Shown here one piece after another: positions 33,396 through 41,385 of a stretch of DNA of 64,000 bases (the first letter of the stretch is position 1; each line of letters starts with the position of its first letter). A program made the translations under genes and the position numbers. A model generated the notes under the pieces. The model was given only the letters and a program-made list of their open reading frames with translations. It was not told where the DNA came from and made no database searches. Source of the stretch: Bacillota bacterium (GTDB taxonomy: Bacteria > Bacillota > Sulfobacillia > RBS10-35 > Bu92); assembly GCA_014896375.1 (NCBI GenBank), contig JADBKN010000002.1, positions 1 through 64,000 of the forward strand, read 5' to 3'.

Positions 33396-33797
33396 TTAAA
33401 GCGACCGCTTGCGCGCGCCGCGCGCCTCCTCCGCCGCCGCGACAACGGCGTCGAGCCCGGCGCCGGTCGATGCGATGACCGCCGCCGCGATCGCGCCCTC
33501 CACGAGCGGCGCGTCCGCGAACCGCACGCGGGCGCGCAGATCCTCGCGCACCAGCTCCAGCGCCGCGTCCGTGCCCATGACCGAGCTGCCGATGTCGGCG
33601 AGCACGCAGACGCCGCCGGCCTCGGCGAGTTCCTCCATGGTCGCGGCGATCCGCACCACATCGACGCCAAGCCCGCCGTCCACGGCGCCCGCGGCGGTAG
33701 CGATGCGGACGCCAGGCGCCATCTGGGCCGCGAGCTCGCGCACCCCCTCGGCCAGCGTGCGGCTGTGGCTCACCACAAGGAGCGCCACGGCGCTCAC
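33396..33797 (-). CDS. dhaM: PTS-dependent dihydroxyacetone kinase phosphotransferase subunit DhaM (EIIA-like domain only)
   Basis: MSAVALLVVSHSRTLAEGVRELAAQMA...GVCVLADIGSSVMGTDAALELV. Confidence 0.9.
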   Translation of the reverse strand: MSAVALLVVSHSRTLAEGVRELAAQMAPGVRIATAAGAVDGGLGVDVVRIAATMEELAEAGGVCVLADIGSSVMGTDAALELVREDLRARVRFADAPLVEGAIAAAVIASTGAGLDAVVAAAEEARGARKRSL

Positions 33798-34456
33798 GAC
33801 GCCGGCGCCTCCGCCGCGACCTCGCTCATCGCCCGCAGGATGATCGCGGACGACGTCGCCCCCGGATCCTGATGCCCAGCGCTCCGCTCCCCGAGGTACG
33901 ACGCCCGCCCGCGCCGCGCCACCATCGGCCGCGTCGCCTGCGCCCCCGCCTCCGCCGCGGCCGCGCCGGCCGCCAGCACCTCCGCCAGCCCGCCGCCGGC
34001 CGCGAGCCGCTCTCGCATGGCCGCGACGGCCGGGGTCCAGGCGTCGACCATCGTCTTGTCGCCGGGCTCGGCCTTGCCCCGCTCCTTCACGCCGGCGAGG
34101 CCGGCCTCGAACGCGCGGACGAGCCCGGCGGCGTCGAGGGACGGGGCATCGCCCGCCGCCGCCGCCATGCGCAGGAAGAACGTGCCGTAGAGCGGGCCGG
34201 ACGCCCCTCCCACGGTGGAGAGGAGCGTCATCGCCACGCCCTTGAGGATCGCCCCGGGCGCCTGCCCGGAAAGCGCCTCGCGCTTCGCCAGCACGGCCTG
34301 GAAGCCGCGGTGCAGGTTGATGCCGTGGTCACCGTCGCCGATCGGCTGGTCGAGCTCCGTGAGCTCCGCCCGCCGCTCGGCCACCCTCGCCGCCATGCGC
34401 TCCACCATGCGCCAGAGGCGCGCGCCGTCGAGCCGCTCCGCCGTGTCCACGTCCAC
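33794..34456 (-). CDS. dhaL: Dihydroxyacetone kinase ADP-binding subunit DhaL
   Basis: ELTELDQPIGDGDHGINLHRGFQAVL...GGASGPLYGTFFLRMA...GDKTMVDAWTPA...GRASYLGERSAGHQDPGATSSAII. Confidence 0.95.
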   Translation of the reverse strand: MDVDTAERLDGARLWRMVERMAARVAERRAELTELDQPIGDGDHGINLHRGFQAVLAKREALSGQAPGAILKGVAMTLLSTVGGASGPLYGTFFLRMAAAAGDAPSLDAAGLVRAFEAGLAGVKERGKAEPGDKTMVDAWTPAVAAMRERLAAGGGLAEVLAAGAAAAEAGAQATRPMVARRGRASYLGERSAGHQDPGATSSAIILRAMSEVAAEAPAS

Positions 34457-34464
34457 GCCCCTCT

Positions 34465-35460
<996 letters not shown>

Positions 35461-35482: not shown

Positions 35483-35842
35483 TCATCGGCTTCCCAGCCA
35501 ACCGCCGATCGACAGCGCCAACCCGACACCGTAAGCGGCCATGGCCGCCCCAAGGGCGAAAAGCGCCCAGTCCAGGCGACGCGCGCCCGCCGGAGAGAGG
35601 CCGGCGTCCAGGATCACGGCGCGCAGCCCGTTCAACCCGTGGTAGATCACGGCGAAGAGCAGCGCGAGCTGCAGCACGAGCCAGTACGGGTCCGCGAAGA
35701 GCGCCGCCACGTCGCGGTACGTGAGCAGCCCCCGCTTGGCGAAGTGGTTCGCCACCATGTGCAGCGCGACAAGCACCACGAGCAAGAGCCCCGTGAACGC
35801 CTGCAGGAGCCACGCCCAGACGGAATATCCCCGCTCGCCCAC
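35483..35842 (-). CDS. Succinate dehydrogenase membrane-anchor-like subunit (SdhD-like)
   Basis: GYSVWAWLLQAFTGLLLVVLVALHMVANHFAKRG...LALLFAVIYHGLNGLRAVILDAG; three TM segments; GTG start after GGAGGTGA. Confidence 0.82.
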   Translation of the reverse strand: MGERGYSVWAWLLQAFTGLLLVVLVALHMVANHFAKRGLLTYRDVAALFADPYWLVLQLALLFAVIYHGLNGLRAVILDAGLSPAGARRLDWALFALGAAMAAYGVGLALSIGGWLGSR

Positions 35843-35847
35843 CGCCC

Positions 35848-36246
35848 TCACCTCCAGGCCGGCGCCAGGATCAGGTACGTCGTGTACGCGAAGACGGCCG
35901 CGGCCGCGGCCATCGCCGCCCAGAACCACTCGCGCTGGCGATGGCTGCCGGCGCCGAGCCCCACGAACACCAGGCGCACGCCGTTCAGGCCGTGCACGAG
36001 GAGCACCGCGACCAGCGCCACATCGAAGAGCAGGAACGGCCAGGAGCTCATCCAGCGCACCAGGCGGTCGTAGCCGGCCGGCCCCTGGAAGAGGACCGAG
36101 AGCACGGCCAGGTGCACGAACACGTAAGCGAGCAGCAGGAGCCCCGTGATCCGGTTCAGCACGAAGGCCCACATGCCGGTGCGGCGCCCGCGGGGCGCAA
36201 ACCACGCGCGCCAGTCCGGCCGGCGGCGCGCTTCCCCCTCGCTCAC
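35848..36246 (-). CDS. Succinate dehydrogenase cytochrome b-like subunit (SdhC-like)
   Basis: GMWAFVLNRITGLLLLAYVFVHLAVLSVLF...LVAVLLVHGLNGVRLVFVGLG; overlaps the upstream Fe-S gene by 4 bp. Confidence 0.82.
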   Translation of the reverse strand: MSEGEARRRPDWRAWFAPRGRRTGMWAFVLNRITGLLLLAYVFVHLAVLSVLFQGPAGYDRLVRWMSSWPFLLFDVALVAVLLVHGLNGVRLVFVGLGAGSHRQREWFWAAMAAAAAVFAYTTYLILAPAWR

Positions 36247-37007
36247 CGGCGCGCCCCCTCTCTCCAGCCGAGGCGACGGCGCACCAGGCGCGCGCGCAGC
36301 TCCATGAGCGCCTGGCCCGGATCCACCCCAGCCGGGCAGGCGGCCGTGCACTCGAACACGTGGTGGCAGCGCCACACGCCGTGGGGCTGGTCGGCGGCCG
36401 CGAGGCGCCGCGCGTCGGAGCCTGTCTTCGTGGGATCCTGCAGCCCGCGCAGCGCCAGCGCGAGCGGCGCCGGGCCCAGATACTCTAGGTCGCTCGCCAC
36501 GATGGGACAGGCGGACATGCAGGCGCCGCAGGTGATGCAGTGCTCGAAGTGCGTCGCCTCCTCCCCGCGCGCCGCCACGAGATCCGCCTCGACGGCGTCG
36601 AGCTTGCCGAAGAACTCCGCGAAGTCCGCCGCGAGATCGCCGAGGACGGGGAAGCTGCGCAGGGGCTCCAGCGTGACCGCGGCGCGCGCGCCCCGCGGCA
36701 GGCGGTAGTCCTTGCCGTGCCCCGTGCGCTCCCCCAGGCGTCCGGCCGCGATCTGGCCGACGGTCGTCAGGCAGGCCAGCCGCTCCCGGCCGTCCACGCG
36801 CAGTGCGCACGTGCCGCAGGACGCGTGGTGGCAGGAGTGGCGGTACATGAGGTCTGGGGCGGGCCCCGCCTGCAGCGCCTCCAGCACGTCCAAGAGCGAC
36901 CAGCCGGCGTCGGCCCGCAACGTGTACGTCTCATAGCGGCCCCCGGCCGCCGAGGCCCGCGCCGGACCGCGCAGGACGCGGACGGTGAGCTCCACTTCCG
37001 CCATCAT
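36243..37007 (-). CDS. Succinate dehydrogenase/fumarate reductase iron-sulfur subunit-like protein (SdhB/FrdB family)
   Basis: [2Fe-2S] CHHASCGTCALRVDGRERLAC, [4Fe-4S] CITCGACMSACP, [3Fe-4S]-type CHHVFECTAACPAGVDPGQALMELR. Confidence 0.92.
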   Translation of the reverse strand: MMAEVELTVRVLRGPARASAAGGRYETYTLRADAGWSLLDVLEALQAGPAPDLMYRHSCHHASCGTCALRVDGRERLACLTTVGQIAAGRLGERTGHGKDYRLPRGARAAVTLEPLRSFPVLGDLAADFAEFFGKLDAVEADLVAARGEEATHFEHCITCGACMSACPIVASDLEYLGPAPLALALRGLQDPTKTGSDARRLAAADQPHGVWRCHHVFECTAACPAGVDPGQALMELRARLVRRRLGWREGARR

Positions 37008-38182
37008 CCTCCCTCCCGCCAGCGGAAACGGTGGAACGGCAGGAGCGCCAGCTCCCGCGTGCGGCACTCCTGCTGCACGCCCAGCTTCTCGCAGACGCGG
37101 TCGGCGACGATCTCCGCCATGAGGCGCGAGGTCGTCGTCTTGCCGCCGACGACGCTCATGAAGCCCTCCGCCCCATCCCGGCCGTGGTCGAAGACCTGAA
37201 AGCCGCGCGACAGCTCCCGCCCGTCGCTCTCCTTGTTCCCGGCCACGAGCGGCCGGGCGGCCGCGAACGCGGCGAGGACGGGCGCCTCCCGCACGGCCGG
37301 CAGGAGCTTCGCGCCCTCCTCGATCATGCGCCGGACGTGGTCCGGCGGGACCGGGATGCGGTCGCCGCTCTCCACGTTCCACGAGGTCGTGCCGATGATC
37401 GACGTCGCGCGCTGCGGGACGATGATGTCGCCGTCCCCGGGCGGCCGCATGCGGTTGATCACGCGCTGGTTGAGGCGCGCCGCCAGCGCCACCATCACGC
37501 CGGCGCTCGGCTGCACCGGCACCTCGACGCCGGCGAGCGCCGCCACGCGCCCCGCCCAGGGCCCCGCCGCGTTGATGACGACCGGCGCCTCCAGCCGCAG
37601 GCGCCTCCGGTGGACGAGATCGTGCGCCACCACGTGCGCCACGCGGCCGGCGCGCACCTCGACGGCTTCGACCGGCGTGAAGGGGAACACCTCCGCGCCG
37701 TTCGCCTGCGCCGTCGCGAGCCAGGACAGCACCAGGCGGTACGGGTCGATCACCGCGTCCGGCACGCGCACGGCCGCACGCACGGATTCCGTCAGCCCCG
37801 GCTCCAGGCGGCGCGCCAGATCGGGCGGGATCTCCTCAGCGGGCACGCCGGCCCGGCGGCACCCTTCGAGGAACGCCTCCCGGTACGCCAGGTCCTCGTC
37901 GTCGATCGCGACGAAGAGGCCGCCGGTCTCTTCGATCACGCCGGGCGCGGCGCGGCGGAGAAGAAGGTTCTCCTGGATGCACTCCACCGCCGACTCCGGA
38001 TCCTTCACGACGTACCGCCCGCCGCTGTGCAGGAGCGCGTGGTTTCTGCCCGTCGTGCCGGACGCCGGCTCGCCCCGTTCCACGACCGCCGTGCGGATGC
38101 CCCGCGAGGCGAGGTCGTGGGCGATGGCGGCGCCGGTCGAGCCGGCGCCGATCACGATGGCCTGGTACTCCGCGGCGTCCGT
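37004..38182 (-). CDS. glpA: Glycerol-3-phosphate dehydrogenase flavoprotein (GlpA-like, short form); predicted non-AUG start
   Basis: QAIVIGAGSTGAAIAHDLASRGIRTAVVERGEPASGTTGRNHALLHSGGRYVVKDPESAVECIQEN...VINAAGPWAGRVAALAG...VVGGKTTTSRLMAEIVAD; lies after glpK; ends near LGVQQECRTRE without the long C-terminal BFD-type extension of E. coli GlpA. Confidence 0.88.
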   Translation of the reverse strand, partial: TDAAEYQAIVIGAGSTGAAIAHDLASRGIRTAVVERGEPASGTTGRNHALLHSGGRYVVKDPESAVECIQENLLLRRAAPGVIEETGGLFVAIDDEDLAYREAFLEGCRRAGVPAEEIPPDLARRLEPGLTESVRAAVRVPDAVIDPYRLVLSWLATAQANGAEVFPFTPVEAVEVRAGRVAHVVAHDLVHRRRLRLEAPVVINAAGPWAGRVAALAGVEVPVQPSAGVMVALAARLNQRVINRMRPPGDGDIIVPQRATSIIGTTSWNVESGDRIPVPPDHVRRMIEEGAKLLPAVREAPVLAAFAAARPLVAGNKESDGRELSRGFQVFDHGRDGAEGFMSVVGGKTTTSRLMAEIVADRVCEKLGVQQECRTRELALLPFHRFRWREGG

Positions 38183-38203: not shown

Positions 38204-39712
<1,509 letters not shown>

Positions 39713-39781: not shown

Positions 39782-40495
39782 CTAGGACCACAGCCCAGCG
39801 TAGAAGAGGGCGCCCAGCACGCCGCCCACAAGCGGCGCGAGAACCGGGATCCAGGCGTACTCCCAGTCCGAGCCGCCCTTGCCCGCGATCGGCAGCACCG
39901 CATGCGCAAGGCGCGGGCCCAGGTCGCGCGCCGGGTTGATGGCGTAGCCGGTGGGCCCGCCCAGCGACAGGCCGATGGCCCAGACGAGGAAGCCCACGAG
40001 CAGCGGTCCGATGCCGGCGCCGAGGTTGTTGTGCGTATTCAGGATGTAGAGCACACCGGAGACGAGGAAGGCCGTGCCGATGACCTCCGTGAGGAAGTTC
40101 GCGCCCGGCCGGCGGATGGCCGGCGCGGTGCAGAACACGGCCAGCTTGGCCGCCTTGTCCTCTGTCGCCTCCCAGTGCGGCAGGTAGGCCAGCCACACCA
40201 CGACCGCGCCGAGGAAGGCGCCGGCGAGCTGCGCCAGGATGTACCCCGGAACCTCGCTCCACGGGAACTTGCCGATGGCCGCCAGCCCGACGGTGACCGC
40301 CGGGTTGAGGTGCGCTCCGCTGATCCACCCCACGGCGTAGACGGCCACGGCCACCGCCAGGCCCCACCCGGTGGTGATGACGATCCAGCCGGAGTTCTGC
40401 CCCTTCGACCGGTTCAGGACCACGTTGGCGACGACGCCGTCGCCCAGGATGATGAGGAGCATCGTACCGATGACTTCAGCCAGGTATGGCGACAC
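39782..40495 (-). CDS. glpF: Glycerol uptake facilitator (MIP/aquaglyceroporin)
   Basis: SGAHLNPAVTVGLAAIG and GYAINPARDLGPRLAHAVLP NPA boxes; GTG start after GGGGAGGGG. Confidence 0.95.
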   Translation of the reverse strand: MSPYLAEVIGTMLLIILGDGVVANVVLNRSKGQNSGWIVITTGWGLAVAVAVYAVGWISGAHLNPAVTVGLAAIGKFPWSEVPGYILAQLAGAFLGAVVVWLAYLPHWEATEDKAAKLAVFCTAPAIRRPGANFLTEVIGTAFLVSGVLYILNTHNNLGAGIGPLLVGFLVWAIGLSLGGPTGYAINPARDLGPRLAHAVLPIAGKGGSDWEYAWIPVLAPLVGGVLGALFYAGLWS

Positions 40496-40582
40496 GTCAA
40501 CCCCTCCCCCTTGCCGTTGACATTCTTCCACCGCCGTCTTGCCTGGATGCCCGAAACGCCGGCCGCCCATCCCCCCTTCCCG

Positions 40583-40674: not shown

Positions 40675-41304
40675 CTATTCGCCCTCGGCGGGACGGTTCC
40701 TGCCGCCGCCGGCGGTTCCCGGCGGCGCGGACGTCGGGCGGTAGCGCCACACCTCGTGGCGGCTCACGGACACGGCGCGCGCTCCCGCGGCGAGCGCGGC
40801 CTCGACATCGGCGCCGGTCTCGATGAGACCCCCGGCGACAATGGGACAGGTCAGCGCCTCCCGAAGGCGCGCGATGGCGCGCGGGACCACGCCCGGCAAG
40901 ACCTCCACCGCGTCCGGCTGCACGGCCTCCGCCATCTGCACCGCCGTGTGGAAGCCCTTCGAGTCCAGCGCGAAGACCCGCTGGATGGCCAGGAGGCCGA
41001 ACTCCCTCGCCACCGGGATGAGGCGCGCCTTCGTCGTGATGAGCCCGTCCGGGCGCACCACGCGCGCGATGTACTCCACGGCCTCCGCCTCGGCGGCCAG
41101 CCCGCGGACGAGGTCGAGGTGCAGGAAGGCGGCCTTGCCGAGCGCCTTGCACTGGCCCACGATGCGCGGAAGCTGGAGCAGGTCGCCCCACAGGATGAAG
41201 GCTGTCGCCACCGCGCGGTGCCGCTCCAGCTCACGCAGATCGCGGTCCTCCCGCAGGGCCGCGATCACCGGCCAGCGCAGCACGGCATCCACACGCCCAT
41301 CCAC
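40675..41304 (-). CDS. glpP: Glycerol-3-phosphate-responsive antiterminator GlpP
   Basis: WPVIAALREDRDLRELERHRAVATAFILWGDLLQLPRIVGQCKALGKAAFLHLDLVRGLAAEAEAVEYIARVVRPDGLITTKARLIPVAREFGLLAIQRVFALDSKGFHTAV. Confidence 0.93.
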   Translation of the reverse strand: MDGRVDAVLRWPVIAALREDRDLRELERHRAVATAFILWGDLLQLPRIVGQCKALGKAAFLHLDLVRGLAAEAEAVEYIARVVRPDGLITTKARLIPVAREFGLLAIQRVFALDSKGFHTAVQMAEAVQPDAVEVLPGVVPRAIARLREALTCPIVAGGLIETGADVEAALAAGARAVSVSRHEVWRYRPTSAPPGTAGGGRNRPAEGE

Positions 41305-41385
41305 GCCCGATTCCCCCTTGACGGCTGCGGTATGATTCTGACTTGAGCGCACGGCTCCGACGGTACCGGAGGGGTGTCGCCCAGC

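Follow-up and report, generated by a model that had tools for sequence, protein, structure and literature searches.

Textbook accounts of glycerol-3-phosphate (G3P) respiration recognise two routes, GlpD and GlpABC. The locus described here, which lies within a 64,000-nucleotide stretch of a Bacillota genome (hereafter the window), raises the question of whether the iron-sulfur and membrane subunits of complex II can serve a G3P dehydrogenase as well. An earlier note on this DNA had proposed exactly such a recruitment of the complex II electron relay and anchor, and gene order, phylogenetic clades, gene fusions and conserved ligands all support the proposal. Taken together, these data indicate that glpA, sdhB, sdhC and sdhD very probably encode one membrane-bound sn-glycerol-3-phosphate:quinone oxidoreductase.

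The four genes are tightly packed on the minus strand. Specifically, glpA (37004..38182) overlaps sdhB (36243..37007) by 4 bp (ATGA), sdhB overlaps sdhC (35848..36246) by 4 bp (GTGA), and sdhD (35483..35842) begins 5 bp past the end of sdhC. The block sits between glpF-glpK and dhaKLM in an operon context, likewise on the minus strand, whose members were identified by Pfam matches: glpP, encoding a G3P-responsive antiterminator (40675..41340; PF04309), and glpF, encoding the glycerol facilitator (39782..40549; PF00230), both with provisional start codons; glpK, encoding the glycerol kinase that makes the G3P substrate (38204..39709); and, after sdhD, dhaK-dhaL-dhaM, encoding dihydroxyacetone kinase (33396..35460). 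Both the close packing and the glycerol operon context had been described in the earlier note and are borne out, as is its statement that the window contains no SdhA-like flavoprotein: matches for SdhA, GlpB and GlpC within the window are confined to the GlpA and SdhB described here.

The flavoprotein, of 392 amino acids, is a GlpA-type FAD-dependent G3P dehydrogenase with a DAO fold. It matches the GlpA profile TIGR03377 with 463 bits, over profile positions 2-377 of 530 only, and a match ending at that position indicates that the BFD-like C-terminus is missing, as had been noted. This shortness is a family trait, given that the long C-terminal tail, the site of the BFD domain in classical GlpA, is present in 43/43 GlpBC-linked GlpAs and missing in 56/57 SdhB-linked GlpAs; in the 57th (G027) the tail is SdhB itself. 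R56, Y57, R310 and K348, to which we assign G3P-site roles by alignment with GlpD, are kept in all 57 SdhB-linked and all 43 GlpBC-linked proteins. H52 is invariant in both groups and R258 in the SdhB-linked group only. An AF2 model of the single chain (pLDDT 92.8) has GlpD and GlpO as its nearest folds; it supports the fold and is silent on the interface. At the start of the gene (38155-38182, minus strand) there is no ATG, GTG or TTG ahead of residue 10, and the gene has ACG at 38182, preceded by GGAGGAGG, where the sister species has ATC (L219). Translation likely starts at this ACG or ATC, since the model has its first strand starting at residue 8.

SdhB is an SdhB/FrdB-type protein composed of Fer2_3 and Fer4_8 domains (TIGR00384, 147.8 bits against a cut-off of 88), and the three cluster motifs reported previously are all present: the 11 cysteine ligands of the [2Fe-2S], [4Fe-4S] and [3Fe-4S] clusters are found in the window protein and conserved among GlpA-linked SdhBs. 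Its single-chain model (pLDDT 86.3) is closest to FrdB and SdhB, and again supports the fold while being silent on the interface. In known complex II structures the [2Fe-2S] loop of SdhB faces the flavin, and it is near this loop, HSCHHASCGTC in the window, that GlpA-linked SdhBs carry a signature, CHH. Specifically, H57, H60 and H61 occur in 54, 55 and 55 of 55 GlpA-linked SdhBs, respectively, whereas SdhA-linked SdhBs have R, A or L at position 60; H61 is also found in 12/43 of the latter. The CHH loop offers a simple sequence test for re-annotating SdhBs of this type, which automated pipelines are prone to label succinate dehydrogenase.

Similarly, SdhC and SdhD are recognisable as complex II anchors. 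Both match PF01127 (Sdh_cyt) above cut-off and each contains three hydrophobic helices, with the motifs HGLNGVR and HGLNGLR, in agreement with the earlier description. Alignment shows the heme-ligand His85 and Arg32 of SdhC to be invariant (29/29), and the heme-ligand His68 and Asp79 of SdhD to be present in 28/28 and 27/28 sequences. At the quinone site as defined in E. coli, Ser27 of SdhC is replaced by F or Y and Tyr83 of SdhD mostly by L or A, which counts against the proposed reading.

These features suggest a route for the electrons. GlpK would make G3P, which GlpA would oxidise to DHAP on its FAD; having no BFD-like Fe-S domain, GlpA would deliver the electrons to SdhB, where they would enter at [2Fe-2S], move on to [4Fe-4S] and [3Fe-4S], and reach quinone where SdhB, SdhC and SdhD meet. 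One b heme would be held between SdhC His85 and SdhD His68, and the two subunits would also anchor the predicted complex in the membrane. Some relatives consist of GlpA and SdhB without SdhC or SdhD, so that for the family as a whole quinone is a putative acceptor.

The earlier note had allowed that the arrangement might be restricted to its own genome, and this was refuted. The nearest genomes with glpA-sdhB-sdhC-sdhD are one of the same genus (G001) and two of the same class (G023 and G027), and dhaK follows the block in G023 and G027 as it does in the window. A scan of the GlpA alignment against one genome per species, covering 85,462 species, gave 80 loci, which were annotated with the proteins of the window and of E. 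coli. A few of these are truncated or lack a recognised partner; the others are mainly of three kinds, namely a short GlpA with SdhB, SdhC and SdhD (Chloroflexota, including Thermoflexus and Anaerolineae; Bacillota; Thermofilum), a short GlpA with SdhB alone (relatives of Desulfovibrio; Spirochaetota), and a long GlpA with GlpB and GlpC. About 30 further loci, from Bacillota, Chloroflexota and Thermofilum, have the order glpA-sdhBCD, and the recurrence of this order across phyla argues that the arrangement is not due to chance. Of 399 genomes drawn evenly from the window's phylum, GlpA was detected at E <= 1e-60 in 43, only three of which stand out as being of the window type, so that the type is rare in this sample. 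The GlpA and SdhB searches are both headed by these three genomes, which a gap in score sets off from the rest; for SdhB, where gene neighbourhood was not used, the three score 248.7, 243.2 and 229.3 bits and the next one 202.2. Among the best 30 SdhBs of the 399 genomes, a CHH loop and an adjacent GlpA occur in exactly these three, while 26 of the remaining 27 adjoin SdhA.

Phylogenetic analyses place the GlpA-linked proteins apart. The SdhBs form a clade distinct from true complex II, a point that the earlier note had wished to see checked: a single branch with support of 100/100 separates 41 GlpA-linked from 34 SdhA-linked sequences, a larger quick tree (55 against 43) is likewise split, and SdhA-linked SdhBs from the same genomes also fall outside the GlpA-linked clade. 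In the GlpA tree one branch (SH-aLRT 100) divides 39 SdhB-linked from 36 GlpBC-linked proteins. GlpA and its SdhB are co-inherited. The Thermofilum locus (L078) lies inside both clades and has the CHH loop, but on long branches, so that its exact place is unsure and the trees do not fix the direction of any transfer.

In two genomes the partners are joined in a single frame. In G027 one open frame runs through GlpA and SdhB, although an internal GTG start in the linker is possible, and SdhB, SdhC and SdhD form one 599-residue open frame in G144 (L221, 4520-6316, reverse strand). That such frames are artefacts of high GC content was considered and rejected; each spans two or three recognisable domains complete with ligands, and they are therefore regarded as real.

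The window's own genome (2.19 Mb, 65 contigs, 93.5% complete) does hold separate succinate dehydrogenase genes, a point that the earlier note had left to be checked. Contig C55 carries sdhA-sdhB followed by a CCG-domain protein (an SdhE-like anchor), without SdhC or SdhD (L005, 1023-4544), and contig C4 carries an sdhC(b558)-sdhA pair whose sdhB is missing in the present assembly (L047, 4705-7110). Synteny of C4 with the sister species ends at the end of sdhA, the loss of sdhB being either a deletion or a misassembly. The window's GlpA is the only GlpA-type protein in this genome, with no second GlpA or GlpD-type protein and only weak DAO relatives found. A heme-copper oxidase is present; a search limited to the MqnA/D route to menaquinone did not find MqnA/D in the genome.

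Several other readings of the locus merit consideration. One is that SdhB, SdhC and SdhD are spare complex II subunits for an SdhA encoded elsewhere, the adjacency of glpA being merely transcriptional. The incomplete C4 pair lends itself to this reading, since its orphan SdhA could use the window's SdhB, but that possibility was set aside because in the sister species the corresponding locus runs on into an sdhB of its own and glpA-sdhBCD is nevertheless retained. The separate clade of the GlpA-linked SdhBs and the fusion of one of them to GlpA also weigh against it, as does their presence in genomes without detectable SdhA. Specifically, no SdhA-type flavoprotein (PF02910) was found in members of Anaerolineae (G063), Thermofilum (G070), Gracilinema (G074) and Treponema (G076), each of which has a GlpA-linked protein as its sole strong SdhB; the four were reached by way of their loci, with no figure given for completeness, so that the absence is suggestive only. 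In the complete chromosome of Breznakiella, the only SdhB is again the GlpA-linked one, and one distant SdhA-like protein is encoded far off, scoring below the curated cut-offs of the models shown. Within the limit just given, the four genomes speak against subunits that bind SdhA alone, a possibility considered in the earlier note, and the spare-subunit reading as a whole appears highly improbable.

It might also be supposed that GlpA acts alone with quinone or another acceptor, and that SdhBCD is a membrane tether carrying no electrons. Such a division of labour has a parallel in Sulfolobus, whose short GlpA-type enzymes reduce quinone without an Fe-S partner and without CoxG, the component of S. 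acidocaldarius GlpA-CoxG that serves as an anchor outside electron transfer (PMC11962113). A mere tether, however, needs neither the 11 cysteines that ligate the clusters and the pair of heme histidines, all kept family-wide, nor a clade-specific change in the [2Fe-2S] loop, and SdhB is retained even where SdhC and SdhD are missing, all of which makes this reading quite unlikely. That the flavoprotein is another DAO-family enzyme, with a substrate other than G3P, could be argued from its score, which is below the NCBIfam GlpA cut-off of 552.8 bits; the deficit fits the missing C-terminus, however, and the invariance of R56, Y57, R310, K348 and H52 as in classical GlpA, the adjoining glpK, glpF and dhaK, and nearest folds that include GlpD and GlpO leave this reading with very little probability.

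The predicted G3P:quinone oxidoreductase is not without precedent. In archaea related to Thermofilum, glpA is followed by counterparts of sdhB, sdhC and sdhD, and in 2025 a GlpA-SdhBCD complex was drawn for Thermofilum pendens as a proposal from synteny only (PMC11962113, Fig. 9b). The window system therefore belongs to a known kind, sharing with that of T. pendens the four genes, their order and a neighbouring glycerol kinase gene, and with the Thermofilum locus L078 the GlpA and SdhB clades and the CHH loop; it differs in being bacterial. The same study, which covers archaea, states that in bacteria glpA is consistently accompanied by glpB and glpC (PMC11962113), and no relevant report of a bacterial GlpA-SdhB complex was found in the openly licensed literature. 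As far as these searches go, what is new is a bacterial family spread over several phyla, its CHH signature, the fusions, and the variants with SdhB only or with a CCG-domain protein.

Comparison with better known enzymes helps to define the system. The GlpA of E. coli GlpABC is homologous and has identical substrate residues, but the window GlpA lacks the BFD tail, has no GlpB, and has SdhB rather than GlpC as its Fe-S partner. With complex II (SdhABCD) the window system shares a three-cluster SdhB and two three-helix anchors with heme histidines, whereas its flavoprotein is of the DAO superfamily rather than SdhA, and its SdhB belongs to a separate clade with H where SdhA-linked SdhBs have R, A or L. 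S. acidocaldarius GlpA-CoxG is similar in its short GlpA and replaced membrane module; unlike it, SdhBCD has a full set of ligands for redox centres. If the prediction holds, it marks the SdhB-SdhCD relay as a portable module, with the wiring of complex II serving an unrelated flavoprotein in a third G3P route. It would also explain how organisms such as the present one, in which searches turned up no second protein of the GlpA or GlpD type, can respire glycerol, and would correct the view that bacterial glpA always pairs with glpBC.

Variation among the relatives points to GlpA-SdhB as the probable constant core. We lean slightly towards the broader proposal that this is an old and exclusive two-protein core which swaps its exit module as complex II does (heme-b SdhC/D, a CCG-domain GlpC/SdhE-like subunit, or none), giving several bacterial phyla a third way, besides GlpD and GlpABC, of respiring G3P, and that anchorless variants may feed a non-quinone acceptor. 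Among relatives of Desulfovibrio and Spirochaetota, several loci (L070, L073, L084, L095, L096, L104 and others) consist of a glpA-sdhB pair with no SdhC, SdhD or CCG gene adjoining, and no heme-copper oxidase was found in the two spirochaetes searched. In another genome (G242; L222, 3438-6482, reverse strand) the order dhaK-dhaL-glpK-glpA-sdhB is followed by a gene for a CCG-domain protein, which would give the GlpA-SdhB core a third type of exit module.
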